A DNA stretch of 28,718 bases from IMG/VR virus record IMGVR_UViG_3300035224_000505, positions 1 through 28,718 of that record; one strand, written 5' to 3'. The position numbers were made by a program, and so were the translations under genes. The notes under the pieces were generated by a model, which saw only the letters and a list, made by a program, of their open reading frames with translations, was not told the DNA's origin and searched no databases. Origin of the DNA: a virus. Shown here one piece after another: positions 11,332 through 28,132 of this stretch. Numbering within the stretch: position 1 is the stretch's first letter; the number at the start of each line of letters is the position of its first letter.

Positions 11332-14300
11332 ATGAGTTTTAATATCAATTCCGATAAAGAGTTCATTAGAGGTTCCAAACCACAACTCATCGGTGATAAT
11401 GAACTTACGATTAGAACTGGATCTGGTTCTCTCGAAAAGGAGATTATCAGAACACAGTTAGATGCAAATACTGGTTTGCCCCGTGTTGGTATCAACCGAA
11501 CCGGACAGAGAGTAAACGAAGTTAAAATTCTTTCTGGTGGATCTGCGTATACTAGTATTCCATCTGTAACTTTAGATCCACCAGGTACTGCTGGAGGAAT
11601 TCAAGCACTAGCATCTGCTTTTATTTTTAACGGTGAAGTAGTTAATATCGCCGTTAATAATCCCGGTAGTGGATACACATCTGCTCCTGCTGTGACCATA
11701 ACAGGTGGTGGTGGATCTGGTGCATCTGGAGAGTCTTTCCTTGATACAGTTGACTTTGAACTTGATATCAACGGCGCAATCAGAACATCAACATCAATTA
11801 TTTCAGACACAGCGAGAGTTCTGAATCTTGATGTTGATAATTTTGTCACTCCAGATCTCGTTTTACGAGGTCCAAATTTCAAAAATTATATGAATGGTAC
11901 TGGAGTTCTATGGGATTCCAATGTTATTGTTCAAGAAAACGCTTACAGATGGTTTGGTTCTAATGTATATCAAGCATTAAATAGTGGAACTACTGCATCA
12001 ACAGCACCAGTTCATACTGATGGTATCGTAACAAATGGTACAGTTCAGTTTAAACATATTGGTATTAGAGCAGAGGATCAAAACGCATTTGCATATGGCG
12101 AGACAGGTGAAGCAGGAATTTTTCCGCGCTCGATTACTCCTTTACTAGGTGATAGATCCGACAAAATTGCAACTACCGAATACGTTTTAAATCTAGCAAC
12201 AAATGATGTTGGTGGTCGTATTTACGTCTCAGAGCAAATTGGTTCTGACCTAAATGATGGTCGTTCAGCAGTTAATCCTGTACGTACAATCAAGAAAGCA
12301 GCACAAGAGGCATGGAAAACTGTTGGTGTTAAAGAAACTCTTATCGTTTCTGGTGGTGAATATCTAGAAGATAACCCAATCTCTTTGCCACCTGATGCTT
12401 CTGTTGTTGGTGATAACTTACGTTTGGTAATTGTCAGACCAAAAAATCCAGGCAAACATATTTTTAAGTTTGGTGATAAGAACTATGTTACTGGTGTAAC
12501 GTATAGAGATAAAATTGATGCCAACGGAGATTCTGTCTCTACTTGGGATTTTGCAATGGTCTTTGATGACAAGCAAAGAGTCATCTTAGATTATGAAGTA
12601 AATGGAGATTTTGGTGTTGAGTTTCCAGTTGGACATCAGATTTTTGGACCTGACCAGTTTAGAATTGGATTTCAGGAAAACACAGGATTAAATGCTCTAC
12701 AAACCGGATTAGAAATTGTTGGTATCAACACAGGTGCTAGAGCAAAAATATTTGATCTCACTTTTACCGGTACAGGAGTTGTAGAAAATAAAGGAACTAT
12801 AGATATTACACTGACCAGTGGTTCTATTCAAGAAGGTGAGACTTTTAAATACATAACTTCTGCTTCTACAAATGCTGCTATTAATGCATTTTCAATTAGT
12901 GCAGTAAGTGGATTCAATACATTCAGAACTAATACAGATCCCACAGGAGAAATTGCTGGTGGTGATTACATATTTTTAGATGATCTAGATGATTCTACTT
13001 TCACTTCTGGATATTATGAAGTTGCAAGTATTACACCAGATGACGAAAACACCCCAACATATTGGGATGTTACTGTTGTTCCAATTCTAAACTCTCCAAC
13101 ATGGAATGCCAATACATCTGAAAGTATTTTAATCTATGAAGCAAGTGTTGTAGAATATCAGTTTGATGGAGTATCACTAGAATCAATTAGAGCAGAAGGC
13201 GAAGTTGTATCTATTGACGAGAATACTACAAATACTCTACCAATTCAAAGACTAGATTTTTCACTTCAAGGAGATCCCAGTATTACAACTGGAGGTTTCC
13301 AAGATGAACAGTTTGGTAATGCAGAAGATTTAGGTGGTGTTGTTTTCTACACCAATGAATTAGTTGGTCGAGAGAATTTTCATGAGTTCAAAGAAGGTCA
13401 AGAAATTTTAATTGAAGGTCTCCCAACTGTTGGTCCCGATTTATCATTTTTAAATGGCAAGCAAAGAATTTACAAAGTTCTAGAAGATGCAGATGGTCGC
13501 TGCCGAAGATTTGTTATACCAAAGAAAGCATCGTCAATTAATGATGCCAATTTTGATCCAGGACAAAATGCTACGGTAAGTACATATTCTAGAAGTGTTA
13601 CCCTATCACTACTAAACTCACCAAATACATTTGCCCTTACAACTCCAGTAGAGAGAAGATTTCAGGATGCATGTGTTTTCATCCGCAATAACAGAGACTT
13701 CATTGCTGATGAGGTAGTAGGAAGAATTAATGATGAATTTAAAAAATCTTATTTTTCAGTTTATGATATTAGTGGCAATGATTTTAAAATTTATCTAGGT
13801 ACTTCCAGATTTGCTCATACTTATGATAACTCAGTTCCAACAGGAACAGTTAAGTTTGGCGGAAGCACTTACAATATTACAGATTTTATATATGATCATG
13901 CAATTACTGGTATAGCTACTATTACAACCAGTGGAACAATTTCTGGTCTTTCAGAAGATGATAACGTTGAACTTGCTGGTATTGAAGTTACTTGCGATAA
14001 TGGAACTAAAATATATCCAAGTGCTAACATTCCAACCAGCGATGAAGAGTGTCGTCAAGATGTTGTCCACTTTTGTAATGCACTTGTAAGAGATCTTGAG
14101 TTTGGCACAAATCATAATATTATTGAGTCATCTCAAAAGTATATTGTTGATGGCAAAATTGCGTATATCGAAGAAGAGATTACTCAAAATGTACGTGCAA
14201 TAGAATATGCTAGAGAACTAGCAGTCTATGCAATGCGTAACTGGAGAACTAAAAATGGTACTCCCAATGATCCAATCTACACTCCAAGGTATTCTTCTGT

Positions 14301-17300
14301 TGTAAGATACTTTGATGATACTGTTATAACATCTACAGCAACTGATGGAGGTACAATTGCATGTGAAGATGTAAGATCGGCAATTGACACTTTATCATAC
14401 CTATGGGTTGATGTCATCACCAATGGTCAAAATGGTACTTATAAAGATGCTGCATATTTAATTACTAGAAATGCTGATGTAATTGCAAGTGAAACATATT
14501 ATCAAACTAAGGTTGCTTATCCTGGACTGAACCATAATAATATTGACGAAAGAAAGTGCCTCAGAGATACCAAATCAGTTTTGAACGCATTAGTCAAAGA
14601 TCTTACTCTTGGAGGAAACTTTGGCATTTTAGAAGCAGGAGAAATATACTTTACTGGAACAGCATTAACTGGTGTTTCTATTGACGAATTGCCAGCAGTT
14701 CGTTATGCATATACGGTAGCAAAAGACTTAGCGCAAAAAGCAATGCGTAATTGGTCTATTAGTGGAAACATTATTGCTGCACAACCAACTAATGCCACAT
14801 ACAATCCATCTAGTGGAGAACTTGTTCTAACGGTAATCACAAGCAATTTGCCAAGTGGTTTCTCGTCTGCTGTCAACTGTAGGGTTGGATTCCAATTAGG
14901 AGCATTGACATTTAGCTGTGCTCATAATGGTGGTGGAGATGATGCAAGTCCTCAAATTTTAGATACAAATCCTGGACAATCCTACTCAGTTCTTGGATAT
15001 AGTGATGGAGGTGGAATTTCTACAATTACACTGAACGTTGGAGCTGCTGGTACTAACACAGATGCACATACCTTCCAGAGTGCATTATCGGGTGGAACAA
15101 TTTTTGTTAATGACTATGCAGTATTAAACACAACTATTCCGAGATTTGAAGATTACACAACTGGAACTGATTTTCCAAACACTCCTATATGTGCTGGTGT
15201 AAAATCTGCTATTGATACCTCTTTCCAGTTATTGGATGATATTCTATTATATGCTGTCGATACGGTTAATGGTATTGAACCAGGAACAACTACTCCAACA
15301 TATGGAACTCTATTTACTATTTCTGATATTATTACATATCCAAACAATTATGTTTATGATCTTAATAATAACAGGATGGCAATCCGTGGAACATATGATG
15401 ACTATCCGATTATTGAGGCATCTCCATACACTCAGAACGCATCTGTTATCTCCTTCCTAGGTGGTGGCGGTGCTTTAATTGACGGTGCTAAAGTCAAGCA
15501 ACCCAACTGTCCTTTCCCCGGTTTAAACCAAGACGGAACAGCTCAGTTCCCAAATCAAGGTAAATCGATGGTTGCTGCGGCATTCACGATTGTTTCTTTT
15601 GGTGGTACAGGTTATAAAATTATTAACGATGGTTATGTCCAGTTAGTTTCAGTCTTCGTTATCTTCTGTGCTGATGGTGTTCTTGCTGAGTCTGGTGGTT
15701 ATGCTTCTATTACAAACTCTGCTACCAACTTTGGTATTCACGCCCTACGCGGTATTGGATACAGAGATGAAGCATACAGTTTCGACGTTGCAACTATTAC
15801 CAATGTATCTTCGACTCCAACAGGTAGAGCAATTTTAACTGTTGATGGTCTTGGCAGAGAACCGCTAGAGCATTATGTTGTTAAAATTGATGGTTATCAA
15901 AATACCAATGAAGATATTGAATACTTTGTTGATGTTGTAGCCAAAGTTGGTGCTGGTCCACCATTCTCCGCTGAACTTACCATTGATGATGGTCAAGGTC
16001 AAGCTATGAATCTTACCGATAGTGCAACTGGTGTTCCTGTAGCAACTTCAGTTCTGGATGGTAAAACAATTAGATTGCATAGACCTTCTATTGTCAACTC
16101 GTCTTCACATACTTGGGAGTATGCAGGTTCTGGTACTAACTACTTAGCACTACCAGAAAACGGTGGTACTAAAAATGAGGCAGAAGAACAAGTATCAGAA
16201 AACTATGGTCGAGTATATGTTTCAGGCACTGACGAATTAGGAGACTTTAAAGTTGGTACGTTTGCTAGGATCGAGAACAGAACTGGTAATATTACTTTCA
16301 CTGGTACTGTTACTATCTCTGAAGTTGAATTCCTGAAACTGAAGGGTGGTGATGTTGTTGTTACTGGATTCTCCGCTGACAACACTCTTGGTGGAGCTAC
16401 TACAAGTAATTCTGTTCTGCCTACACAAAAAGCAGTTAGAGATTACATCACTAACAATTTAGGACCTTTCATCAATAAACCATATTCCACAAATGCTGTT
16501 CCTAGAGCTCTAGTTGAACTTACGGATTCTGGTAAAATTTCTGTTGATCAAATTCCAGCACTCAGACCATTTGAAGTTTTTACTGTTGTTAATGAGGGCG
16601 AAAGACTCCAGTTAGAAGGAGCACTTGCAGGTGATATTGCTATTCAACAAAATAGCGATGTTGTAAATGGATCTCCCCAATCGTTTATTCTTAATAATGA
16701 TTTGGATAGTCAGTTCTTGGCATTTAATCCAGATCCAACAATTCAATTTACTCTTAATGATATTTTCCAGGGTAGTAATACCACCGGTCGCGTTCAAGCA
16801 ACTGAGTATAGAACTGGAGTTGTATTTACAATTAATCTTGTACAAGGTGGTAGTGGATACACAGTACCTCCAACAGTTACAATTGCAGGTACTGTTGGAC
16901 AAGGTGGAATAGAAGCAAAAGCAGAAACAACCATAGCTAATGGTGAAGTTGTTACAATTTCACTAATCTTCTTTAATGGGGTTAAAGGTGGTAAAGGTTA
17001 TACAAGTGCTCCTACTGTTACTATTTCGGCACCTCCAGGATTAGGAACCCAAGCAACAGCAAATGCATTAATTGAATCCAGACTATATGGAAATATTGTT
17101 AATAGAATTGCAATTATTGATACTGATCAGATTGAAAGTAGTGATGTTCCTGCAGTTACCGTTAACCTTACAAGAGTAGTTAATACTTCATCTAGTGATA
17201 TTAATAATTGGGTTGGATTATCATCCAATCAGATTGCTGCTTCTGATATCACTTCTGGTACTATAGAGACTGATAGACTTGCTAATAGCGGCGCTGCAAA

Positions 17301-20300
17301 CTCGTTTACTTTCCTACGAGGTGATAGTTCGTTCGCTCTTGCTGTTCAATCACTCAAAGGAGCAGAAACTCGATACTTTGCTAAGTTGTATAGCAATGTG
17401 AGTAGTGGTCAGAACTCAATGATCTTTACTACAAATTCAGATTTCTTAATTGGTCATTCTGTTCTTTCAAGCATTAATGGCATCCAATCAAATACCAATA
17501 TTACTGGTGTTATTACTGCAGCTGGATTGACAACTATTTCTATCAACAATCCAGTTTCACAAACAATTACTGCTGGAACTATTATTGAGTTCCAGCGTGG
17601 CAATTCGCCAATGATTTTTGAGTCAACTTATACTCAAGGAAACTTTGTTGATCGTATTATTATCGCCAATGGTGGTACTGGATTTACTAATGGTCAGTAT
17701 TCTGATATTGCATTGAGTGGAGGAGCAGGAAATGATTTAAAAGCTTCAATTACTGTTTCCGGTAATACAATTACAAAGGCTCTTGTAACATCTGGTGGAA
17801 CTAACTACACAAGTGATTTTTCAATTACACTCAATCCCACTGAAATTGGTGCTGGATCTGGAATGGTTTTGGAAGCAAAAGTTTCTACCGTTAATAGACA
17901 GTATGCAAACGTTGCATTAGATGTTCAGAGAGTTACAGATCTAACCATTACAGCGGATGAATATGGAACGATTGGTGTATCTAGGTTTAGGAAAGCTCAA
18001 TTTAATCTTGGCACAAAAGGAAATGGTTCGGTTGAACTTAAAACAGGTGCTGGATCTGGACTAGATGCAGATAAATTGGATGATAAGCAAGGTTCTTACT
18101 ACACAAATGCAACAAATTTATTCACAGGAACTGTTCCTACAGATAGACTTGCTGGATCCTATAACATCAATGTTTCTGGTTCTTCTGGAAATACACTAAG
18201 ACTAGCAACTGGTACTAACAACCCAACATCAAACCCAACTCCAAATAATTTCGTTGAAGGTCTTGCTGCTAATACTATCAATAATAGTTCTGATGGTTTG
18301 AATGATGGTGGAGCTCAACACCTTGTGTTGACAATCAGAAACAAAGGTCAAGGTTTAACTGCCGAAGGTGGTGTCAGACAAATGGCATTCACAGACAATG
18401 ACAACATCTGGTTGCGTGGTTCTGGTGATGAAGTAACAACTTTTGGTACTTGGGCGAAGATGTGGACTTCTCTAAATGATGGTCCTGGTTCCGGTCTTGA
18501 TGCTGATAGACTTTCCAACAAACAAGCAGAATGGTATCAAAATGCACTTAATATTAACTATGGAGTTATTTCTGATAATAGAATTCCAACATTCTTAAGT
18601 GCTACTAAATTTAGAGATAATCTTCGCATTCAATCATTTAATGGAGATCCTAAGTTTAGAATTTATGTTGCTGGTCGAATCTTAAATGCAACTCCATTTA
18701 CTCCTGGGGGAAATGTCAACCTATACAATGCACTTTCTCAAGCAATTGGTGCAATTTCAATTGATAACATTGTCATTAATGATGACGCAAGTGATACCTT
18801 TAATGATTACACGATCCTTATTGGTAGATTGACTACCGGTAATTTTATTGGCGGAGAAACTATTGGTACTGCATCTAATAGAGTTCCTTACCAAGACTTT
18901 ACACTTGACGATAATAATGTTGTTGAAGTTGCTACTCTAGAAAGCGATGGTGGTACTGCCAACTTAAGGTTAGGAAGGAAAGATGGCAATGCTACTTCTC
19001 CGGGTGTTTACTTTAATAGTTCTCAGTTAACTGCAAATTATAATAGTGCAATTGTATCCACTGGTGGTACTTCTACTGATGGTTCAGGAACCCTGAATGC
19101 TATAGTAGTAAATGCAGATGGATTTAATATTAATGGTAATGTTATCTGGAACGAAGGCAACATTCAATTTAATTCAACGAACGTTGTAAGTACTGCTGTT
19201 GAACGTGATAGTTCTGGTAATTTTGCCGCTGGCACAATTACAGCATCAATAATCGGTGCGTCTTCACTAAACGTCCTTAAGACGGGTGATACTATGACAG
19301 GACCACTACAACTGTCTGGTGTTAATTCCACTTTAACTATTGCAGGAACTGCAACTTTCAGTAGCACTGTAGGAATCACAGATGATTTAACAGTTGACAG
19401 TGGCGTTTTGTTTGTAGATGCTTCTTCCAATGAAGTTGGTATTAATACCACAGATCCACAGCAAGCACTACATGTATATGGAAACATTAGATTGGATGCG
19501 GTAAACCCAGAAATTCAGTTTAATGGGACTAGCGATACCGGTATTGATATAGCAATCAAGGCAACACCAGAAGGTTTAGATTTTTATGAACCAGAAGATA
19601 GTAATAAAATTCAATTCAGAATTTATGATGATACTGGTGTGGATTCTCCATTCGGTTATCATATTAACGGAACCAGAATTTTCAATCAAGCAAGAGATTT
19701 AACTAACGTTAACTCTACTACTATACAAAATTCAGGTGCTGGTCAACTCAATTTCTATAATAATAGTGGTACAAGATACTGGAGAGTTGGTTCAAATAAT
19801 AATGCAACTAACTACTTTTCGATCGAAGCATCAGATGCAAATGGAGGCACGACATTTAGTGGATCACCTGCTCTCGCTGTAAGTGGAGTTAATAATGCTG
19901 TAACAATTAACACTACTTCAACCTCTGGTACTGACCCATCAGATGGTACTACTGTAAGAAATTACAAATTTAATGTTCAAGGTGATATGAACCTTAACGG
20001 TCAGTTCTTCCAAAATAATGCCGAATTTGTAACCTCCAGATGGACTGAAGCAACTAATGGTGATGACATTTACAGATTGTCTAAGGTTGGTATTAATAAA
20101 GCAGATCCGCAATATACATTAGATCTGGATGGAGATTTTAATATCACTGGTATTCAGTATATTAATGGCAATGCACAATGGTTGGATTCCAATGGAATCA
20201 TCAAAATTGTTCAAAATGCTGATATCTCAGAGAACATTACAATTGGTAATTCTAGTGATTGTTTTTCCAATGGTCCTATTGAAATTGCTACCGGATATGC

Positions 20301-20340
20301 GGTAACTATTGGAAGTGGATCTAGTTGGGCAATTATCTAA
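11332..20340 (+). CDS. Giant tail-fibre-like virion protein, 3002 aa
   Basis: This is one uninterrupted frame starting MSFNINSDKEFIRGSKPQLI. Gly-Tyr linker modules occur near residues 63-133, 1833-1913 and 2103-2183 (for example GSGYTSAPAVTI). Residues about 192-243 share a small module with the 1610-residue protein (GTTASTAPVHT). From about residue 290, GGRIYVSEQIGSDLNDGRSA followed by a TIKKAAQEA segment resembles the start of pectate-lyase-like right-handed beta-helices. Residues about 905-1290 contain a duplicated helical unit (NALVRDLEFG...AMRNW and NALVKDLTLG...AMRNW, each followed by a CxxV[RK]SAIDT segment). The block near 1372-1484 (QGKSMVAAAFTIVSFGGTGY-like) is one I recognise from cyanophage structural proteins. 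The C-terminal 800 residues carry fibre repeats: GSGLDAD twice (about 2242 and 2386), TGDTMTGPLQL (about 2652) and VGINTTDPQQALHV (about 2701). There is no obvious C-terminal autocleaving chaperone. Some cyanophage annotations name a large protein in this area VrlC; I cannot confirm that equivalence. Confidence 0.9.
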   Translation: MSFNINSDKEFIRGSKPQLIGDNELTIRTGSGSLEKEIIRTQLDANTGLPRVGINRTGQRVNEVKILSGGSAYTSIPSVTLDPPGTAGGIQALASAFIFNGEVVNIAVNNPGSGYTSAPAVTITGGGGSGASGESFLDTVDFELDINGAIRTSTSIISDTARVLNLDVDNFVTPDLVLRGPNFKNYMNGTGVLWDSNVIVQENAYRWFGSNVYQALNSGTTASTAPVHTDGIVTNGTVQFKHIGIRAEDQNAFAYGETGEAGIFPRSITPLLGDRSDKIATTEYVLNLATNDVGGRIYVSEQIGSDLNDGRSAVNPVRTIKKAAQEAWKTVGVKETLIVSGGEYLEDNPISLPPDASVVGDNLRLVIVRPKNPGKHIFKFGDKNYVTGVTYRDKIDANGDSVSTWDFAMVFDDKQRVILDYEVNGDFGVEFPVGHQIFGPDQFRIGFQENTGLNALQTGLEIVGINTGARAKIFDLTFTGTGVVENKGTIDITLTSGSIQEGETFKYITSASTNAAINAFSISAVSGFNTFRTNTDPTGEIAGGDYIFLDDLDDSTFTSGYYEVASITPDDENTPTYWDVTVVPILNSPTWNANTSESILIYEASVVEYQFDGVSLESIRAEGEVVSIDENTTNTLPIQRLDFSLQGDPSITTGGFQDEQFGNAEDLGGVVFYTNELVGRENFHEFKEGQEILIEGLPTVGPDLSFLNGKQRIYKVLEDADGRCRRFVIPKKASSINDANFDPGQNATVSTYSRSVTLSLLNSPNTFALTTPVERRFQDACVFIRNNRDFIADEVVGRINDEFKKSYFSVYDISGNDFKIYLGTSRFAHTYDNSVPTGTVKFGGSTYNITDFIYDHAITGIATITTSGTISGLSEDDNVELAGIEVTCDNGTKIYPSANIPTSDEECRQDVVHFCNALVRDLEFGTNHNIIESSQKYIVDGKIAYIEEEITQNVRAIEYARELAVYAMRNWRTKNGTPNDPIYTPRYSSVVRYFDDTVITSTATDGGTIACEDVRSAIDTLSYLWVDVITNGQNGTYKDAAYLITRNADVIASETYYQTKVAYPGLNHNNIDERKCLRDTKSVLNALVKDLTLGGNFGILEAGEIYFTGTALTGVSIDELPAVRYAYTVAKDLAQKAMRNWSISGNIIAAQPTNATYNPSSGELVLTVITSNLPSGFSSAVNCRVGFQLGALTFSCAHNGGGDDASPQILDTNPGQSYSVLGYSDGGGISTITLNVGAAGTNTDAHTFQSALSGGTIFVNDYAVLNTTIPRFEDYTTGTDFPNTPICAGVKSAIDTSFQLLDDILLYAVDTVNGIEPGTTTPTYGTLFTISDIITYPNNYVYDLNNNRMAIRGTYDDYPIIEASPYTQNASVISFLGGGGALIDGAKVKQPNCPFPGLNQDGTAQFPNQGKSMVAAAFTIVSFGGTGYKIINDGYVQLVSVFVIFCADGVLAESGGYASITNSATNFGIHALRGIGYRDEAYSFDVATITNVSSTPTGRAILTVDGLGREPLEHYVVKIDGYQNTNEDIEYFVDVVAKVGAGPPFSAELTIDDGQGQAMNLTDSATGVPVATSVLDGKTIRLHRPSIVNSSSHTWEYAGSGTNYLALPENGGTKNEAEEQVSENYGRVYVSGTDELGDFKVGTFARIENRTGNITFTGTVTISEVEFLKLKGGDVVVTGFSADNTLGGATTSNSVLPTQKAVRDYITNNLGPFINKPYSTNAVPRALVELTDSGKISVDQIPALRPFEVFTVVNEGERLQLEGALAGDIAIQQNSDVVNGSPQSFILNNDLDSQFLAFNPDPTIQFTLNDIFQGSNTTGRVQATEYRTGVVFTINLVQGGSGYTVPPTVTIAGTVGQGGIEAKAETTIANGEVVTISLIFFNGVKGGKGYTSAPTVTISAPPGLGTQATANALIESRLYGNIVNRIAIIDTDQIESSDVPAVTVNLTRVVNTSSSDINNWVGLSSNQIAASDITSGTIETDRLANSGAANSFTFLRGDSSFALAVQSLKGAETRYFAKLYSNVSSGQNSMIFTTNSDFLIGHSVLSSINGIQSNTNITGVITAAGLTTISINNPVSQTITAGTIIEFQRGNSPMIFESTYTQGNFVDRIIIANGGTGFTNGQYSDIALSGGAGNDLKASITVSGNTITKALVTSGGTNYTSDFSITLNPTEIGAGSGMVLEAKVSTVNRQYANVALDVQRVTDLTITADEYGTIGVSRFRKAQFNLGTKGNGSVELKTGAGSGLDADKLDDKQGSYYTNATNLFTGTVPTDRLAGSYNINVSGSSGNTLRLATGTNNPTSNPTPNNFVEGLAANTINNSSDGLNDGGAQHLVLTIRNKGQGLTAEGGVRQMAFTDNDNIWLRGSGDEVTTFGTWAKMWTSLNDGPGSGLDADRLSNKQAEWYQNALNINYGVISDNRIPTFLSATKFRDNLRIQSFNGDPKFRIYVAGRILNATPFTPGGNVNLYNALSQAIGAISIDNIVINDDASDTFNDYTILIGRLTTGNFIGGETIGTASNRVPYQDFTLDDNNVVEVATLESDGGTANLRLGRKDGNATSPGVYFNSSQLTANYNSAIVSTGGTSTDGSGTLNAIVVNADGFNINGNVIWNEGNIQFNSTNVVSTAVERDSSGNFAAGTITASIIGASSLNVLKTGDTMTGPLQLSGVNSTLTIAGTATFSSTVGITDDLTVDSGVLFVDASSNEVGINTTDPQQALHVYGNIRLDAVNPEIQFNGTSDTGIDIAIKATPEGLDFYEPEDSNKIQFRIYDDTGVDSPFGYHINGTRIFNQARDLTNVNSTTIQNSGAGQLNFYNNSGTRYWRVGSNNNATNYFSIEASDANGGTTFSGSPALAVSGVNNAVTINTTSTSGTDPSDGTTVRNYKFNVQGDMNLNGQFFQNNAEFVTSRWTEATNGDDIYRLSKVGINKADPQYTLDLDGDFNITGIQYINGNAQWLDSNGIIKIVQNADISENITIGNSSDCFSNGPIEIATGYAVTIGSGSSWAII
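14047..15270 (+). repeat. Internal duplicated helical unit in the 3002-aa protein
   Basis: Two copies of a Cys-led helical unit lie in tandem, starting near 14050 and 14554. Each has NALV[RK]DL, a second helix ending AMRNW, and a later C-x2-V-[RK]-SAIDT helix. The second copy is longer because a beta-rich segment with TFSCAHNGGG wording (about 14800-15110) is inserted after its AMRNW. This is a protein-level repeat; the DNA has diverged. Confidence 0.7.
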
Positions 20341-20341
20341 T

Positions 20342-20348
20342 CTAAATA
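20342..20348 (+). promoter_or_regulatory. Late promoter-like CTAAATA for first glycine-rich gene
   Basis: CTAAATA begins 2 bases after the stop of the 3002-residue gene and lies 16 bases before the ATG at 20365. It is a variant of the ATAAATA late core. The whole intergenic stretch is 24 bases, so little else can serve as a signal here. Confidence 0.55.
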
Positions 20349-20364
20349 AAAGAAAGTTTAAAAA

Positions 20365-21372
20365 ATGTCAACTGTTAATACTGATAGGGCCAATATTGGA
20401 ATTGGTATTAAAATTCCGTCATTAACTCAGTCTCAAATCAATAGTCGTTCTACGAACGGTGGTGATATTGTATACAATAGCACCGAAGAGACAATGCAGA
20501 TCTACAATTCTGTAGAAGGGCAATGGGAAGTTATTGGAGAGGGAGCATCTTTGTATGATTTCTCAACAGCAACTTTTACTACTCCAATAGAAGGATATCA
20601 AGGTCCTTCTTTGTCGCAAATTAGAGCCGGAATTTCCGGTAATGATGCATGGAAAAACGATACAAGTTTCTTGAGTGTATCATCTGGTATAATTACATGG
20701 GCAGTTCCTGCTGACGGAAATTATGTTATTACCGTAAGAGGTGGTCAAGGTGGCAGAAGTAATTGTTATGGACCTGCTGGCGGCAAAGGTGCTAGGTTAT
20801 CAGGAACATTTGCATTGACTTCAGGTGATACCCTTAAAATGGCTATTGGACAAAGAGGAACCAATAACTGTTATGACTGTGGTGGTGGAGGAGGTACTTA
20901 TGTATGCACATCTAGTAATTCTCCTTTAATTATTGCAGCAGGTGGCGGTGCTGGATCTGCTTCGGGATATCCTTATGGTGGCAATGGTTATCATGGGAGA
21001 CATGATATCACCAATGGATCTTTAGGTTACAGCAGCAGACCTGGAGGCACTAATGGATCTGGTGGAAATGGATATGGTAATGCTGGAGGTGGTGGAGGTT
21101 TAACCGGAAACGGTAGTGGATCCTGGTATGGTAGAGCTTTCACCAACGGATCTCAAGGTGGTCCTGGTCCTGCTCAAGGTGGTTTTGGCGGCGGTGGTGG
21201 CGGTGGAGGCACTAATGGCGCTGGTGGTGGTGGCGGGTATTCCGGCGGTGGTGCAACTCAATGGAGTTTCTGGGGTGCTGGAGGAGGATCATATAATGGT
21301 GGTTCTAGTCAATCAGGAACAACAGCAGAAAATTCAAATGCTGGATCAATAAGTATACAATTTCAAGGATAG
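20365..21372 (+). CDS. Glycine-rich fibre-tip adhesin candidate 1, 335 aa
   Basis: The first 70 residues are a small structural/attachment region with GGDIVYNSTEETMQIYN and a WEVIGE strand, matching a motif (GSVRYN...W..LGG) in the 1610-residue protein. Residues about 72-112 contain PIEGYQGPSLSQIRAGISGN. The rest matches the pattern of the ALK/LTK-type glycine-rich domain as I know it: a GGQGGR strand, YGPAGGKGARL, LKMAIGQRGTNN, CGGGGGTYV, LIIAAGGGAGS, then long glycine runs (about 273-292) and a WSFWGAGGGSY end. Cysteines in NCYDCGGGGGTYVC could form disulfides. In T4-like phages such as Salmonella phage S16, glycine-rich gp38 adhesins form polyglycine II helix bundles that bind receptors; a tip-adhesin role here is inferred by analogy. 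It is paralogous to the genes at 21896 and 23228, with near-identical DNA to the latter over most of its length. A late motif precedes it. Confidence 0.85.
   Translation: MSTVNTDRANIGIGIKIPSLTQSQINSRSTNGGDIVYNSTEETMQIYNSVEGQWEVIGEGASLYDFSTATFTTPIEGYQGPSLSQIRAGISGNDAWKNDTSFLSVSSGIITWAVPADGNYVITVRGGQGGRSNCYGPAGGKGARLSGTFALTSGDTLKMAIGQRGTNNCYDCGGGGGTYVCTSSNSPLIIAAGGGAGSASGYPYGGNGYHGRHDITNGSLGYSSRPGGTNGSGGNGYGNAGGGGGLTGNGSGSWYGRAFTNGSQGGPGPAQGGFGGGGGGGGTNGAGGGGGYSGGGATQWSFWGAGGGSYNGGSSQSGTTAENSNAGSISIQFQG
20567..20630 (+). repeat. 64-bp identical block shared with the third glycine-rich gene
   Basis: These 64 bases are identical to 23454-23517. Upstream of this block the two genes differ in sequence and length; downstream they stay highly similar to the end of the gene. 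It marks an abrupt left edge of homology between paralogues. Confidence 0.85.
21183..21240 (+). repeat. Glycine-codon repeat tract, copy 1
   Basis: A GGN-rich tract encodes FGGGGGGGGTNGAGGGGGY. The core GGAGGCACTAATGGCGCTGG is identical in the other two glycine-rich genes. It is GC-rich relative to its AT-rich surroundings. Confidence 0.8.
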
Positions 21373-21379
21373 AAAGGAA

Positions 21380-21871
21380 ATGAAATATATTAAATTAGTA
21401 AACAACACTCCTATCCATTATACAATAGAACAATTTATTGAAGAATATCCGGAAGTTAAAATTTATACAAAAGTAAAAGGAATTCCCGATAAAAATGTTT
21501 TAAAGCAGTATGATGTATATCCTTTGATTACTACCGCGTCTCCAGAAATAACGGCAGATACAGAAGTAGTAGAGATAGATCCTCAACAAAATTGGAATGG
21601 TGAGTGGATTCAGCAATGGGAAGTAAAAGAGATTCATAAATCAATTGATGATATGGAAGTTGAGGAAAAGAAGGGATTTAAATTTCCTAATCTTGGTGCT
21701 GATGCATTTGCTAGTAATGAACAAAGACTAGAAAGAATGAATATTTGTCAAGACTGTGATAGATATAGAAAATCTACTAGACAATGTAAAGAGTGTGGAT
21801 GTTTTATGGTTCTCAAAGCGCAACTAAAAGTATCCGCATGCCCCCTAGACAAGTGGGGAAAATTAGTCTAA
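21380..21871 (+). CDS. Tail-fibre-assembly-like protein with C-terminal zinc-ribbon-like tail, 163 aa
   Basis: Residues 1-85 follow the pattern of the N-terminal part of phage tail-fibre assembly proteins (Tfa / DUF4376-type): YTIEQFIEEYPEV, then LKQYDVYPL, then an acidic stretch and a WIQQWEV strand. The C-terminus has a compact cysteine cluster, C123-x2-C126-x9-C136-x2-C139-x-C141-x12-C154 followed by PLDKW, a pattern I know from small phage zinc-ribbon domains (possibly DUF6171-like, from memory). The gene starts 7 bases after the first glycine-rich gene, whose last codons include AAGGAT, a usable Shine-Dalgarno at the right distance. Its N-terminal half is paralogous to the 87-residue protein at 22938. 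The tight pairing with a glycine-rich adhesin suggests a dedicated assembly chaperone; the fused cysteine tail is unusual. Function is inferred. Confidence 0.8.
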   Translation: MKYIKLVNNTPIHYTIEQFIEEYPEVKIYTKVKGIPDKNVLKQYDVYPLITTASPEITADTEVVEIDPQQNWNGEWIQQWEVKEIHKSIDDMEVEEKKGFKFPNLGADAFASNEQRLERMNICQDCDRYRKSTRQCKECGCFMVLKAQLKVSACPLDKWGKLV

Positions 21872-21874
21872 ATA
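21868..21874 (+). promoter_or_regulatory. Late promoter-like CTAAATA built on a stop codon
   Basis: CTAAATA includes the TAA stop (21869-21871) of the preceding gene and lies 21 bases before the ATG at 21896. Sequence and spacing match the other late motifs in the window. Confidence 0.55.
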
Positions 21875-21895
21875 AGATATAGAGTACTTTTAAAA

Positions 21896-22933
21896 ATGGC
21901 AGAAACTTCAAAACTTACGGTTGACACAGCTAACGTCTCGCAAAATTTAGTTTTTGCAAGATTATCTGTGGCCGCAAGAGATGCACATTTTGCAGCCAAT
22001 CCTCCAGAGATTGGCATGCTCATTTTTAATGATGACGACAAAGTTTTAGAATTTTGGAATGGTAGTGAATGGAAACTTGCTCTCGGAGAGAGAACGGGTG
22101 GAGGAGGAGCACAACGATATAATTTTCAAGGTTTTGAATATGATGCTAATGAGACGAGCAGGACCGGTCCATCGTTAGCGACTGTTGTAAGCAGAATTTC
22201 TGGTAATGATGAATGGAAAAATAATTCAGAATATTTAAGTGTTAACAGTGGAGTTTGGTCATGGACCCCACCAGGAACCGGAAACTACAAAATTGAATGC
22301 TGGGGAGCCCAAGGTGGTAGAAGTAATTATTATGGACCTGCTGGTGGCACAGGAGTATATGCTACTGGTACTGTGAATATCAAAGGTGGAACTAAATTAA
22401 AAATTGTTGTCGGACAAAGAGGCACAAATAATGGATATGATTGCGGTGGCGGCGGTGGTACTTATGTCTGTGAAGAAGACAACACACCTTTAGTTATTGC
22501 AGGAGGAGGTGGTGGTGGATCTGCTTCTGGAATGAATGGACCAGGACCACAAAATGGAACCACTAGTGAAACTGGAGGTAGCACTGCTTATGGTCCTGGT
22601 GGATCTAATGGATCTGGCGGCGGCGGTAATAATGGTCCTTCTGGAGGTGGTGGAGGAACAACCGGAAACGGTAATGGAAGTTGGGGAGGTCAAGGTCTAT
22701 CTGCCGGATCTCAAGGTGGTCCTGGTCCTGCCCCTGGTGGTTTTGGCGGCGGCGGCGGCGGTGGAGGCACTAATGGCGCTGGCGGTGGTGGCGGATACTC
22801 TGGTGGAGCTATGTCTAGATGGAGTTTTTATGCTGCTGGTGGAGGTTCTTATGTAACTTCTGATGCTACTGGAGCAGTGAAGACGGCAGGGCAAAGACAA
22901 AATGCCGGTAAAATTAAAATTACTAAGGTGTGA
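21896..22933 (+). CDS. Glycine-rich fibre-tip adhesin candidate 2, 345 aa
   Basis: This is the most divergent of the three paralogues. It starts MAETSKLTVDTANVSQNLVF and has the same N-terminal attachment strand pair (IGMLIFNDDDKVLEFWNG, then EWKLALG). Its domain start is different in wording (GFEYDANETSRTGPSLATVV) but keeps ISGNDEWKN. The glycine-rich domain follows the shared order: ECWGAQGGRS, YYGPAGG, KIVVGQRGTNN, CGGGGGTYVC, LVIAGGGGGGS, glycine runs at about 282-302 and a WSFYAAGGGSY end. The WGAQGG and AGGGGGGS pieces are the closest in this window to the ALK/LTK-type glycine-rich domain. It lacks the first cysteine seen in the other two copies (SNYYG rather than SNCYG, and NNGYDC rather than NNCYDC). 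The variable middle (about 210-280) differs most from its paralogues, as would be expected of receptor-contacting loops. Confidence 0.85.
   Translation: MAETSKLTVDTANVSQNLVFARLSVAARDAHFAANPPEIGMLIFNDDDKVLEFWNGSEWKLALGERTGGGGAQRYNFQGFEYDANETSRTGPSLATVVSRISGNDEWKNNSEYLSVNSGVWSWTPPGTGNYKIECWGAQGGRSNYYGPAGGTGVYATGTVNIKGGTKLKIVVGQRGTNNGYDCGGGGGTYVCEEDNTPLVIAGGGGGGSASGMNGPGPQNGTTSETGGSTAYGPGGSNGSGGGGNNGPSGGGGGTTGNGNGSWGGQGLSAGSQGGPGPAPGGFGGGGGGGGTNGAGGGGGYSGGAMSRWSFYAAGGGSYVTSDATGAVKTAGQRQNAGKIKITKV
22741..22800 (+). repeat. Glycine-codon repeat tract, copy 2
   Basis: A GGC/GGT-rich tract contains the same core GGAGGCACTAATGGCGCTGG as copies 1 and 3. The surrounding gene has diverged more than this tract has. 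Confidence 0.8.
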
Positions 22934-22937
22934 TGAA

Positions 22938-23201
22938 ATGACAAGATTAATTAAATTAAATAATCACAATCCTATTGAATATTCAGTAGAACAATTTATT
23001 GAAGATCATCCTGATGTGGATCCATGTGATGCAGAGTATCAAGAACTTTCTGCTGAAATTTTATCAAAGTATGATATTCATATTCTCCACGAAGCAGTAA
23101 AACCGTCAATTGATGGAAATATTGTAGAAGGTCCTCCTGTGTTTCTTGCAGAGAAATGGATTCAAAACTGGATTAATCAAGTGCCACCTCCGTGGGAATA
23201 A
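22938..23201 (+). CDS. Small tail-fibre-assembly-like protein, 87 aa
   Basis: I chose the ATG at 22938, 4 bases after the stop of the glycine-rich gene, because the protein then begins MTRLIKLNNHNPIEYSVEQF, matching the MKYIKLVNNTPIHYTIEQF start of the 163-residue paralogue; an in-frame ATG at 22902 would add 12 unrelated residues inside the preceding gene. The rest follows the same order: FIEDHPDV, ILSKYDIHIL, an acidic linker, then KWIQNWINQV. It stops where the paralogue continues into its cysteine cluster, so it is the minimal form of the domain. By position it would serve the glycine-rich protein just upstream. The N-terminal pattern resembles phage tail-fibre assembly proteins; chaperone function is inferred. 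Confidence 0.78.
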   Translation: MTRLIKLNNHNPIEYSVEQFIEDHPDVDPCDAEYQELSAEILSKYDIHILHEAVKPSIDGNIVEGPPVFLAEKWIQNWINQVPPPWE

Positions 23202-23204
23202 ATA
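23198..23204 (+). promoter_or_regulatory. Late promoter motif ATAAATA built on a stop codon
   Basis: ATAAATA contains the TAA stop (23199-23201) of the 87-residue gene and lies 23 bases before the ATG at 23228. It is one of the good matches to the cyanophage late core. Confidence 0.65.
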
Positions 23205-23227
23205 ATAGTAATAGGTCTATAATATAA

Positions 23228-24259
23228 ATGTCTACCTTAAACGTAAATCATCTTTTTATCAATACTGATCTCAATATTCCACAATATAGTGAGGCAGCTA
23301 GAGATGCTTTGCCAAAAATTATTGGTGCCGTGATTTATAATACAACTTCAGGTCAATTTGAAGTTTGGACGGGAGACCCAGATAGTGATGTAGACTCAGA
23401 ATATGGAGTCGGGTGGATTTCTTCTCCTGGTCCGCAACTATATGAATTCTCATCAGCAACTTTTACTACTCCAATAGAAGGATATCAAGGTCCTTCTTTG
23501 TCGCAAATTAGAGCCGGTATTTCTGGCAACTCTGCATGGAAAAACGATACAAATTTTTTAAATGTATCATCTGGTGTTATTTCTTGGGCAGTTCCTGCTG
23601 ACGGAAATTATCAGATTACCGTAAAAGGTGGGCAAGGTGGAAGAAGTAATTGTTATGGACCTGCTGGCGGCAAAGGTGCTAGGTTAACAGGAACATTTTC
23701 TTTATCCCAAGGTGATACCCTTAAAATGGTTATTGGACAAAGAGGAACTAATAACTGTTATGACTGTGGAGGAGGCGGTGGAACATATGTATGCACATCT
23801 AGCAATTCCCCTTTAATTATTGCAGCAGGTGGGGGCGCTGGATCTGCTTCTGGATATCCTTATGGCGGTAATGGTTATCATGGAAGACACGACATCACTA
23901 ATGGATCTTTAGGTTACAGCAGCAGACCTGGAGGCACTAGTGGAGGTGGTGGAAATGGATATGGTAATGCTGGCGGCGGCGGAGGTTTAACCGGAAACGG
24001 TAGCGGATCTTGGTATGGCAGATCTTTCACCAACGGAGCGAGTGGTGGTCCTGGTCAAGCTCAAGGTGGTTTTGGCGGCGGCGGCGGCGGTGGAGGCACT
24101 AATGGCGCTGGCGGCGGCGGCGGATACTCTGGCGGTGGTGCAACTCAATGGAGTTTCTGGGGTGCTGGAGGAGGATCATATAATGGTGGTAATTCTCAAT
24201 CAGGAACAACAGCAGACAATTCAAATGCTGGATCAATAAGTATACAATTTCAAGGATAG
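23228..24259 (+). CDS. Glycine-rich fibre-tip adhesin candidate 3, 343 aa
   Basis: The first 75 residues are unlike the first paralogue in sequence (MSTLNVNHLFINTDLNIPQY) but keep the attachment strand (IGAVIYNTTSGQFEVWTG). From about residue 76 the protein is almost the same as candidate 1, including PIEGYQGPSLSQIRAGISGN, NCYGPAGGKGARL, GQRGTNNCYDCGGGGGTYVC, SASGYPYGGNGYHGRHDITN and the WSFWGAGGGSYNGG end. Differences cluster in short loops (for example SGGGG for NGSGG, and FTNGASGGPGQAQ for FTNGSQGGPGPAQ). Unlike the other two copies it is not followed by a tail-fibre-assembly-like partner, but by a coiled-coil protein, so it may share a chaperone with the others. A late ATAAATA motif precedes it. 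Role as receptor-binding tip is by analogy with polyglycine adhesins. Confidence 0.85.
   Translation: MSTLNVNHLFINTDLNIPQYSEAARDALPKIIGAVIYNTTSGQFEVWTGDPDSDVDSEYGVGWISSPGPQLYEFSSATFTTPIEGYQGPSLSQIRAGISGNSAWKNDTNFLNVSSGVISWAVPADGNYQITVKGGQGGRSNCYGPAGGKGARLTGTFSLSQGDTLKMVIGQRGTNNCYDCGGGGGTYVCTSSNSPLIIAAGGGAGSASGYPYGGNGYHGRHDITNGSLGYSSRPGGTSGGGGNGYGNAGGGGGLTGNGSGSWYGRSFTNGASGGPGQAQGGFGGGGGGGGTNGAGGGGGYSGGGATQWSFWGAGGGSYNGGNSQSGTTADNSNAGSISIQFQG
23454..23517 (+). repeat. 64-bp identical block, partner of 20567-20630
   Basis: This is the second copy of the 64-base identical block and marks the left edge of strong homology between glycine-rich genes 1 and 3. Confidence 0.85.
24068..24127 (+). repeat. 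Glycine-codon repeat tract, copy 3
   Basis: This GGC-rich tract carries the same core GGAGGCACTAATGGCGCTGG. It is the most GC-rich of the three copies. Confidence 0.8.
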
Positions 24260-24266
24260 ATAAATA
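24260..24266 (+). promoter_or_regulatory. Late promoter motif ATAAATA for the 65-aa gene
   Basis: GATAAATA directly follows the stop of the third glycine-rich gene and lies 28 bases before the ATG at 24295. The message would be short, because a strong hairpin terminator lies at 24500. Confidence 0.65.
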
Positions 24267-24294
24267 GTCTTATACACAATTACCGGTGATAACT

Positions 24295-24492
24295 ATGGAT
24301 CCAGCACAACTTAAGTCTAATTTTGAAGAGCAGATTGCTTCTACAGAAAAGCAAATTGCGGAACTCGAAAAAAATCTAGTCAAAGCAAAAGAATATAAAA
24401 TTAAATTGGAAGGCGGTCTAGAAACTCTAGGTCTTCTAGAAGATAAACCGGAAGAAGAAGCAGAAGTAGCACCCACAGAAGTAGTAGAATAA
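24295..24492 (+). CDS. Small coiled-coil protein, 65 aa
   Basis: I chose the ATG at 24295 (MDPAQLKSNFEEQIASTEKQ) over an in-frame GTG 9 bases upstream. Residues about 5-42 form a strongly predicted-looking helix with heptad spacing (EEQIASTEKQIAELEKNLVK) rich in Glu, Lys and Gln, which should form a coiled coil. The last 20 residues are acidic and low-complexity (EDKPEEEAEVAPTEVVE-like). The gene has its own late motif upstream and a terminator directly downstream, so it is a one-gene late unit. I do not recognise a family. In T4 the fibritin gene wac, whose product is a coiled coil, lies just upstream of gp13, but this protein is far shorter and I do not claim equivalence. Confidence 0.75.
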   Translation: MDPAQLKSNFEEQIASTEKQIAELEKNLVKAKEYKIKLEGGLETLGLLEDKPEEEAEVAPTEVVE

Positions 24493-25343: not shown

Positions 25344-26468
25344 ATGCCTACTAGTCCCTACTTTCCAACTTACTACGCAGGTCATAGCGGCGAGCAAGGT
25401 CTCGCACAGGATCTTGTGGACGAACAAATCAAACTGTTCGGAACAGACATATACTATATTCCTAGAGTAGCTCTAAAAGATAACACTCTTAATGAGGTTA
25501 GATACTCTAAGTATCAAGAACATTTTCAAATTGAGATGTTGCTTCAAAACGTCATGGGATTTGGAGACAACGCTGAGTTTATCTCCAAGTTTGGTTTAAG
25601 GATTACTGATGAGATTATCTTTAGAGTATCTACTAGGAGATGGGATCAAGAAGTAGCAGATCACAATCCTACCATTACTGTTGAGAGTAGACCTAACGAG
25701 GGAGATCTACTTTACTTTCCACTAACAAAAGATATCTACGAGATTAAATTTGTTGGTAAGGAAGAACCATTCTTCCAATTTGGTAAGATCCAATTCTATG
25801 CTATCACTGCTGAGATCTATGAGGTTGGTAGTGATTCGTTCGAGACAGGCGTTGAAGAGATTGATGATGTGGAAGAACTATTTGATCCAGCAATTAAACT
25901 ATTCATGGACCCTGGTGGTTCTGGAGACTTTACTGTAGGTGAAGAAGTTGTTGGTGATGAGTTCTTAGCAAAAGCAACATCTGCTATTACAGGCGATGCT
26001 GTTTCAGGTATTACAATTTCAGATGGTGGAGCACATTATAAAGTTGCTACACCACCATCCGTAACTATTTCTGGAGGAGGTGGAACAGGTGCAACTGCTA
26101 CTACAACGGTTAGCTCTACTGGCATTGTTAACGGCATTGCTATCACCAGTGGCGGGAGCGGTTATAGTTCTGCGCCTACTATCACAATTGATTACTCACC
26201 CAAAGATAACAGAGCAGAAGTCAAGTCTTGGGATAGCGCAACCAGAGCTCTTCAAGTCTACAATAGAACAGGAACCTTTACTACTGCTGAAGTAATTACT
26301 GGTATAACTTCAGGTGCCAAGTGGAGTCCCGAGACATTCGACACTCTAAATAATACCAACAGCAACTACGATCAGAATAGACAGATCGAAGATTCTGGTG
26401 ATGAGATTATCGACTGGACTGAAGGTAATCCATTCGGTGAATTTGGCAACTTTACGGATAGCATCTAA
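25344..26468 (+). CDS. 14: Neck protein gp14 with an inserted Gly-Tyr linker domain, 374 aa
   Basis: The ATG follows gp13 after one base. The N-terminal half (MPTSPYFPTYYAGHSGEQGL, then LVDEQIKLFGTDIYYIPR and RYSKYQEHFQIEMLLQNV) is characteristic of T4-like gp14, which works with gp13 to close the head and build the neck. Residues about 211-289 interrupt this protein with two Gly-Tyr modules (ITISDGGAHYKVATPPSVTI and ITSGGSGYSSAPTITI around an SGGGGTGATATTT stretch), the same module that recurs in the giant fibre proteins. After it the gp14-like sequence resumes with AEVKSWDSATRALQVYNRTG and ends with an acidic ESGDE-like, WTEGNPFGEFGNFTDSI tail. The insertion would be displayed on the neck exterior if it folds as a separate domain; that is inferred. 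Confidence 0.92.
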   Translation: MPTSPYFPTYYAGHSGEQGLAQDLVDEQIKLFGTDIYYIPRVALKDNTLNEVRYSKYQEHFQIEMLLQNVMGFGDNAEFISKFGLRITDEIIFRVSTRRWDQEVADHNPTITVESRPNEGDLLYFPLTKDIYEIKFVGKEEPFFQFGKIQFYAITAEIYEVGSDSFETGVEEIDDVEELFDPAIKLFMDPGGSGDFTVGEEVVGDEFLAKATSAITGDAVSGITISDGGAHYKVATPPSVTISGGGGTGATATTTVSSTGIVNGIAITSGGSGYSSAPTITIDYSPKDNRAEVKSWDSATRALQVYNRTGTFTTAEVITGITSGAKWSPETFDTLNNTNSNYDQNRQIEDSGDEIIDWTEGNPFGEFGNFTDSI

Positions 26469-27706: not shown

Positions 27707-28132
27707 ATGAGAGATTTTAGAGAATTAAAAGAACTCTGCGAAGCTAAGCGTGGTTTGTATGCAAACATTCACGCAAAGCGAAAACGAGGAGAAGCACCAG
27801 CGAAGTCAGGTAGTAAGGACTACCCCGCTAAGGATGCTTTTCAAAAGGCGGCGAGGACTGCCAAAGAAAGTTTTGAACTCACCACAGAAGCAGCCTGGAC
27901 AAAAAAGTCAGGCAAAAACAAAGAAGGAGGTCTCAATGAAAAGGGACGAAGATCTTATGAGAAGGAAAATCCAGGATCTGACCTTAAAGCACCAAGCAAA
28001 AAGGTTGGAAACCCCCGTCGCGCATCGTTTTGCGCTCGAATGAAGGGCATGAAAAAGAAATTAACCAGTAAAAAAACTGCTGGAGACAAGGATAGTAGAA
28101 TCAACAAATCACTACGTAAGTGGAATTGCTGA
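27707..28132 (+). CDS. Basic cyanophage protein with DUF6321-like C-terminus, 141 aa
   Basis: This Lys/Arg-rich protein has two recognisable parts. The N-terminal 50 residues contain LYANIHAKRKRGEAPAKSGS and DYPAKDAFQKAAR, a stretch familiar from cyanomyovirus proteins. The C-terminal part (about residues 63-141) has WTKKSGKNKEGGLNEKGRRS, ENPGSDLKAPSKK, GNPRRASFCARMKGMKKKL and the terminal SLRKWNC; I associate this from memory with DUF6321/DUF5872. Two conserved cysteines (in FCARM and the last residue) and the dense basic charge suggest nucleic-acid or nucleoprotein contact, but no enzymatic activity is known to me. It has its own late promoter and is the last gene of the late block here. 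The two overlapping alternative frames are shadows. Confidence 0.85.
   Translation: MRDFRELKELCEAKRGLYANIHAKRKRGEAPAKSGSKDYPAKDAFQKAARTAKESFELTTEAAWTKKSGKNKEGGLNEKGRRSYEKENPGSDLKAPSKKVGNPRRASFCARMKGMKKKLTSKKTAGDKDSRINKSLRKWNC

Follow-up and report, generated by a model that had tools for sequence, protein, structure and literature searches.

The locus described here lies in a 28,718-base stretch of virus DNA (IMG/VR record IMGVR_UViG_3300035224_000505), referred to below as the window, and contains three copies, with no further copy, of a gene for a glycine-rich protein that we read as an adhesin. From left to right, the genes encode a 3002-amino-acid (aa) protein (11332 to 20340), adhesin 1 (20365 to 21372; 335 aa), small protein 1 (21380 to 21871; 163 aa), adhesin 2 (21896 to 22933; 345 aa), small protein 2 (22938 to 23201; 87 aa), adhesin 3 (23228 to 24259; 343 aa), a conserved 68-aa phrog_580 protein (24286 to 24492) that separates this variable slot from gp13, the head-tail adaptor Ad2 (gp13), and a 374-aa protein at the gp14 position; the adhesin, small-protein, and phrog_580 genes are all on the plus strand. 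The row of glycine-rich proteins, with a small protein after both the first and the second, had been described in an initial annotation and is borne out by the open reading frames (ORFs). Small protein 1 has a chaperone-like N-terminal domain (residues 1 to about 85) and a DUF6171 four-cysteine domain (residues 115 to 159); small protein 2, for which the ATG at 22938 was taken as the start rather than position 22902 of the mechanical ORF list, has the chaperone-like domain and no DUF6171 domain. The gp13 protein shares 99.6% identity with its counterpart in Synechococcus phage ACG-2014i (family Kyanoviridae); therefore, the earlier assignment to the cyanophages is sound, and on this gene evidence the virus is a T4-like cyanophage. 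The 3002-aa protein occupies the place of the ACG-2014i tail fiber-like protein and partially matches it. The psbA gene (PF00124) was not found in the four contigs searched, which are fragments. We consider it probable, at roughly three chances in four, that the three glycine-rich proteins are the receptor-binding tips of a T4-like cyanophage tail fiber system, with separate anchors, two ALK/LTK-like head types, gene conversion between heads, and Tfa-like helpers.

Each adhesin can be divided into an N-terminal anchor and a C-terminal head. The anchors comprise residues 1 to 62 of adhesin 1 (20365 to 20550), 1 to 73 of adhesin 2 (21896 to 22114), and 1 to 70 of adhesin 3 (23228 to 23437). Head 1 (20551 to 21372) is a predicted TNF-like plus polyglycine domain and matches phrog_22713 (E = 2.7e-27); head 2 (22115 to 22933), a second head type, is supported by its predicted model and LTK fold match, and head 3 (23438 to 24259), a near-copy of head 1, by its DNA likeness to head 1. 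Four motifs named previously, YGPAGG, GQRGTNN, CGGGGGTYV, and a fourth, are present in the same order in all three proteins. An AlphaFold2 model of adhesin 2, made with 40 aligned sequences (mean predicted local distance difference test score [pLDDT], 90.4; predicted template modeling score [pTM], 0.80), has a head consisting of a TNF-like domain with a polyglycine lattice, in agreement with the proposal of a polyglycine adhesin, and an anchor with four strands and one helix of at least 4 residues.

Comparison of the copies showed that heads and anchors have different histories. At the protein level, heads 1 and 3 share 92% identity, and head 2 is 55 to 57% identical to either. The three anchors are only 22 to 34% identical to each other (20 to 37% under a second alignment; 22 to 33% for anchors 1 and 3, depending on the alignment), yet they are 97% identical to their positional counterparts in locus L002 and 74 to 76% identical in L006 (loci compared are given L numbers; anchor 1, 97% and 74%; anchor 2, 97% and 75%). 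The DNA likeness between copies 1 and 3 begins at the domain border (about 20551 and 23438) and ends at the stop codon, with none beyond. In a tree of heads, copies 1 and 3 of the window and of L002 fell into one group (85/93) and were not separated by gene; in an anchor tree of the same 14 rows, the third copies grouped together (79/87) and the close first and second copies each formed a supported group, although the long branches of L013 leave the deep part unsure. Synonymous divergence (dS) between heads 1 and 3 was 0.29 in the window and 0.29 in L002, compared with 1.06 to 1.28 between the window heads and the matching heads of L006, and was saturated between the anchors of copies 1 and 3 in both the window and L002. 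As judged from the anchors, the copies were already separate when the window and L006 lineages diverged, so the heads of the window and L002 were made alike later than that divergence; on these comparisons, heads 1 and 3 of this lineage must have been homogenized by gene conversion or an equivalent exchange.

Of 22 within-genome pairs from 14 loci, 5 pairs, each in a different locus (the window, L002, L006, L023, and L033), combined heads at least 76% alike with anchors no more than 33% alike; the L023 anchors, when remeasured, were 27% identical. In the remaining 17 pairs, two of which had anchors too short to compare, the heads were 38 to 58% identical and the pattern was absent. Since the L023 and L033 contigs are unlike that of the window, the pattern seems to recur without being the rule.

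The set itself is old. The order adhesin, small protein, adhesin, small protein, adhesin, phrog_580 protein, gp13 is kept in L002/L005 (one contig), in L006/L012 (one contig), and in L013; the L003 contig starts past the expected first adhesin, and its remainder fits the same order, while the L001 contig, whose proteins are identical, stops short of gp13. In L013 the order persists even though gp13 is only 55% identical to that of the window and the best adhesin segments are 37 to 43% identical, which argues against the recent amplification implied when the locus was called an amplified cassette. Recent tandem amplification was rejected given the matching sets in L002, L006, L013, and, as far as its contig extends, L003; the likeness of heads 1 and 3 has nonetheless been maintained. 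Two or more such proteins are encoded in 14 of the 29 IMG/VR loci listed, which came from a viral profile search and are a sample rather than a full census (L016/L018 and L030/L031 look like duplicate records), and a profile search of genome contigs returned at least four relatives. PF12810, the ALK/LTK glycine-rich domain family, was absent from the 14 control genomes searched. The ALK-like head also occurs toward the C terminus of phage proteins of 859 to 1175 aa, in L016 next to a short adhesin that is a protein of its own, and near the N terminus of proteins of more than 1900 aa in L034 and L037. In Actinomycetia phage DSL-LC01 (L042, 5551 to 12402), a protein with this kind of domain is publicly annotated as "ALK tyrosine kinase receptor," an animal receptor name transferred to a phage protein.

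Divergence along the locus is uneven. Between the window and L005, the three heads are 87.7, 88.4, and 90.4% identical, compared with 96.4% for the part of the tail fiber gene compared, 95 to 99% for the anchors and small genes, and 97.0% for gp13. The gene at the gp14 position (25344 to 26468; 83.8%, against 97.0% for gp13) carries a divergent patch just past the neck gene, with a low of 77% near 25765. In a blastn comparison with ACG-2014i (L038), the window is 97.2% identical from 24287 onward, has no match across 20095 to 24286, and is 68 to 78% identical in matched stretches farther upstream; by this comparison, there is a recombination junction directly after adhesin 3 (24260 to 24287). 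Other genes occupy the same slot in ACG-2014i, ACG-2014e, S-CAM4/ACG-2014j, and Sf-CH1b. The slot proteins of ACG-2014i and Sf-CH1b have a related anchor (46 to 49% identity over about 50 residues; for anchor 3 and the ACG-2014i protein, 46% over 50 residues) but other heads. That of ACG-2014i belongs to a different family (phrog_4831), and that of Sf-CH1b is glycine rich, was missed by the family profile at E = 1e-5, and is weakly linked to the window family through phrog_7388 (E = 3e-8), so that it may be a distant relative. The Sf-CH1b protein (L043, 6001 to 7104), with the same kind of anchor, has its glycine-rich head annotated as PE-PGRS, and a DUF6171 protein is encoded two genes on. 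The phrog_580 protein, a boundary marker of the exchangeable module, is also present in named cyanophages with quite different slot genes (L038 to L041 and L043); in L020, where gp13 identity drops to 30%, no copy was found. Variable host recognition regions have been described in marine phages (PMC3909814).

The suggestion that every adhesin gene has its own late motif was upheld. The late-promoter-like hexamer TAAATA lies on the plus strand 22, 27, and 29 bases 5' of the starts of adhesins 1 (20343 to 20348), 2 (21869 to 21874), and 3 (23199 to 23204), respectively, and 21 to 31 bases upstream of the tail fiber gene (11332), the phrog_580 gene, gp13 (start as listed), and the gene at 27707. 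Of the 15 gene starts examined, 8 have a TAAATA in the 60 bases before them, compared with a mean of 0.57 for random positions, and the 14 other arrangements of its letters reached a maximum of 4 of the same 15 starts; there is no enrichment over the whole window, and placement is what stands out. The adhesin 3 motif agrees with the cyanophage late promoter NATAAATA published for S-PM2 (PMC2984593), and adhesins 1 and 2 carry CTAAATA. Because each adhesin has its own motif and neither small gene has a TAAATA within 60 bases upstream, we infer three late units: adhesin 1 with small protein 1, adhesin 2 with small protein 2, and adhesin 3 alone.

The nearest precedent is the fiber of the myocyanophage Pam3. 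As described in that report, the TNF-like and glycine-rich domains of gp24 (PDB 7yfw) are proposed to form the host recognition head, and gp25 is a Tfa-like chaperone that embraces gp24; of the two, gp24 alone was detected in virions by mass spectrometry (PMC9608196). A Klebsiella phage fiber that bears the closest resemblance to gp24 is reported to recognize lipopolysaccharide (PMC12671077). In common with the Pam3 fiber, the window proteins have a TNF-like plus glycine-rich domain, here predicted, and the first two adjoin a gene for a candidate, possibly Tfa-like, chaperone; the two systems differ in that Pam3 is described as having an N-terminal alpha-helical trimer shaft on a single fiber protein, whereas the adhesin 2 anchor is mostly beta in our model. 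The S16/T2-type gp38 adhesins (PDB 6F45), to which the proteins had been likened, share a polyglycine II lattice with variable connecting loops and are likewise separate small gene products at the fiber tip, a position that the window proteins would occupy. The lattice part of this likeness is supported by the predicted fold; however, the gp38 lattice is described as being built on a beta-helix and docked via a helical bundle (PMC6851490), whereas the window head is TNF-like and its modeled anchor mostly beta. Polyglycine/PPII bundles are the common description applied to the Pam3 fiber, S16 gp38, and ALK/LTK elsewhere (PMC13243192). In haloarchaeal hafunaviruses, a glycine-rich adhesin gene is followed by a small-protein gene in a hypervariable host range locus, with, according to that account, one adhesin gene per virus (PMC8651126); this is a likeness at the level of the published description.

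The small proteins are the candidate chaperones of this system. Their N-terminal domains are homologous (34% identity between small protein 2 and the corresponding part of small protein 1), and the tail-fiber-assembly-like N terminus proposed for them was recovered as a predicted fold in small protein 1 and extends to small protein 2 by sequence. The model of small protein 1 (pLDDT, 81.7; pTM, 0.44) has two domains of unsure mutual placement. Its top match in BFVD was a "Phage tail assembly chaperone protein" (E = 1.4e-6; 84 columns; root mean square deviation [RMSD], 2.5), and 5 of the first 12 rows were named tail assembly chaperone, the others being nameless or matching the DUF6171 part only; these names are annotations, not tests. 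A sequence search of phages with residues 1 to 85 of small protein 1 yielded no solid match (best E, 0.07), profiles of the small proteins matched PDB sequences at chance level only, and Pfam and PHROGs offered no name for the N terminus, the best match being phrog_4998, which has no description (best E, 0.0014; 5 of 8 members). Residues 115 to 159 of small protein 1 match DUF6171 (PF19668) at 35.6 bits, above the curated cutoff of 27; the name DUF6171 was not found in the literature searched. With a profile built from 12 rows of the same adhesin loci, DUF6171 was detected in 11 of the 29 adhesin loci, directly after the adhesin gene in 9 of them; in the other two, the upstream adhesin is off the contig (L003) or the domain is some 850 bases away (L032). 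It lies among fiber or virion genes in two of six named phage records viewed (Sf-CH1b and Sf-FP1). The idea that DUF6171 is an adhesin-only partner was rejected, since the domain is also found among non-fiber genes in named phages.

It is rather unlikely, but deserves consideration, that the small proteins are not chaperones at all, in which case DUF6171 would have a zinc-ribbon-like function of its own and the N-terminal domain common to both would serve as a structural cap that stays on the fiber. The occurrence of DUF6171 outside adhesin neighborhoods would fit this, as would the overlap, in many S-RIM2 cyanophage records, of a DUF6171-like stretch with features annotated as 2OG-Fe(II) oxygenase. 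Moreover, Pam3 gp25 is described as ending in a helical trimerization domain (PMC9608196), which is seen in neither small protein, as small protein 1 ends in DUF6171 and small protein 2 lacks a C-terminal part, and the Tfa of phage Mu is reported to stay bound to its own fiber (PMC10579305). The likeness of the predicted N-terminal fold to proteins annotated as tail assembly chaperones argues against a cap, as do the pairing of the genes across contigs and the shared transcription units as judged from the motifs; we therefore infer a chaperone action.

The resemblance of the heads to the eukaryotic ALK/LTK domain, presented initially as a parallel, proved stronger than that in both predicted fold and sequence. 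Foldseek searches of PDB with the adhesin 2 model returned 21 chains at E < 0.001, all ALK, LTK, or SCD-2; S16 gp38 was absent among the structure matches listed, which does not exclude a likeness. With VIA-align, LTK (7nx0_B; Z, 32.9; RMSD, 2.1; 241 residues) and ALK (31.5 to 32.9) matched best, worm SCD-2 gave 21.8, and TNF/C1q folds reached a Z of at most 5.2; the fold match covers residues 75 to 345. The Pam3 fiber (7yfw_a), aligned with residues 76 to 345, gave a Z of 7.7 (RMSD, 2.8) over only 130 residues, above the other TNF/C1q rows but weak taken alone, so that the window head is much nearer ALK/LTK than Pam3. The Pam3 authors had themselves remarked on a likeness to Caenorhabditis elegans ALK (2.6 Å over 125 residues) (PMC9608196). 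With the ALK/LTK glycine-rich (TG) domain, PF12810, the window heads share the whole-domain fold and a sequence profile match over both halves; they differ in having no kinase or membrane part and in being carried on a phage anchor. A profile of 40 phage proteins found the ALK sequence at E = 5e-38, and 21 of these 40 matched PF12810 at E = 0.01; a homologue on the L013 contig passes the Pfam cutoff at 29.7 bits. In the TNF-like part (55 to 59 columns), human ALK and worm SCD-2 are 35% identical, and 25 of the 40 phage proteins are at least 35% identical to ALK (best, 46%), a count biased in favor of the phages, since a local alignment to a phage protein defined the fragments; the three window proteins, at 32 to 34%, are just below.

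Convergence, in which a glycine-rich lattice on a jelly roll arose twice, is an improbable explanation: glycine-rich composition can inflate scores, and polyglycine bundles are not confined to one scaffold, the beta-helix of S16 gp38 being another example (PMC6851490), yet the TNF-like part alone, with 16% glycine, still finds ALK (E = 2.3e-18), LTK (6e-17), and SCD-2 (5e-12), with the next match at 0.013, so that the match persists when the glycine-rich half is removed, and the fold match spans both halves of the head. The likeness thus appears to be similarity at the level of homology, as supported by both sequence and model. We postulate, with somewhat less than even confidence, that the phage heads and the ALK/LTK ligand-binding domain are one by descent and that animals took the domain from a prokaryotic or phage adhesin. 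In phages, the domain would be a plug-in receptor binder: a single virion would carry one head on several different anchors, gene conversion would preserve the likeness of the copies, and different fibers would thereby recognize the same host.

Taken together, these data are consistent with the following model. The adhesins would sit in an exchangeable host recognition slot between the long tail fiber gene and gp13. The N-terminal anchor would set the docking place on the virion, and the C-terminal head, a TNF-like beta-sandwich with a lattice of polyglycine II helices, would present connecting loops that touch the host and set the receptor; the position at the tip and the contact through loops are probable features of the model. 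One head type would be carried on anchors 1 and 3 and the other on anchor 2, and gene conversion over a tract from the domain start to the stop codon would keep heads 1 and 3 alike. Adhesins 1 and 2 would each be cotranscribed with a small Tfa-like folding helper, and adhesin 3 probably borrows the helper of adhesin 1; that no small gene follows adhesin 3 fits, because its head is the same as head 1, which has a helper. Host recognition is favored because the same kind of domain is the proposed host recognition part of the Pam3 fiber, because the genes lie between a fiber gene and gp13, and because the domain occurs in fiber-sized proteins; furthermore, the heads change faster than the anchors and small genes, and related anchors bear other heads.

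Several observations weigh against this model. The adhesin model is of copy 2 only and as a monomer, and the model of small protein 1 has no fold match in PDB. Dips in identity to L005 are not unique to the heads, since the gp14 gene and one 300-base stretch of the tail fiber gene (87.0%) also dip; therefore, recombination is not limited to the heads. In L006, dS between heads 1 and 3 is 0.86, only slightly below the 0.97 to 1.28 separating them from the window copies, which indicates that homogenization there is weak or old. The Pfam cutoff for PF12810 (ALK_LTK_GRD; 24.5 bits) was not reached by the window proteins: adhesin 2 scored 14.6 bits, and adhesins 1 and 3 gave no match at E = 0.1. 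Finally, DUF6171 is found in PSS2 before the tape measure gene, in S-MbCM6 among hypothetical genes some 3 kb after gp5, in S-SSM7 among auxiliary genes, and in the Stenotrophomonas phage IME-SM1 near tRNA genes.

It had been proposed that the multiple adhesins hold several receptor specificities at once. A second head on adhesin 2 supports part of this proposal, but the extension to three separate specificities, each adhesin having its own receptor and the phage being a generalist, is unlikely to hold. Three different anchors, the difference of head 2 from heads 1 and 3 (57% and 55 to 56% identity), and the L013 locus, in which all three heads differ (34 to 52% identity), would accord with it. 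However, one loop, a stretch of about 27 residues starting SGYPYGGNGYHGRHD where head 2 departs most from the other two, has the same sequence in copies 1 and 3 of the window and almost the same sequence in copies 1 and 3 of L002 and L006; in L003, by eye, copy 3 has a copy-2-type stretch at this position. A near-identical tip on two different stems suggests that the phage keeps its tips matched and does not carry three different ones.

Cyanophage whiskers and decorations exist, and the adhesin genes adjoin the neck genes gp13 and gp14 and have no known receptor, so the proteins could be imagined to decorate the virion surface or neck, with a loose affinity for sugars or debris and no role in setting the host range. 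We think this a poor fit: the same kind of domain is the proposed host recognition head of the Pam3 fiber (PMC9608196), it lies toward the end of fiber-sized proteins, and the heads are the faster-changing, exchanged part.

Beyond Pam3, the receptor-binding tip model adds a set of three adhesins that carry two head types between them, the maintained likeness of one head on two anchors, and a head much nearer to ALK/LTK. In a limited literature search, we found no report of a three-copy adhesin set and none of sequence-level homology between phage heads and ALK other than the structural remark for Pam3.

If this model is correct, phrog_22713 and phrog_7388, which are filed as of unknown function, would gain a role as the cyanophage receptor-binding tip, and attention would be directed to loops that may set cyanophage host range. 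It would also follow that several specificities cannot be presumed from the presence of several adhesins in one genome. Lastly, there are phage relatives of the ALK/LTK ligand-binding domain similar enough for phylogeny, which makes the origin of this receptor domain testable.

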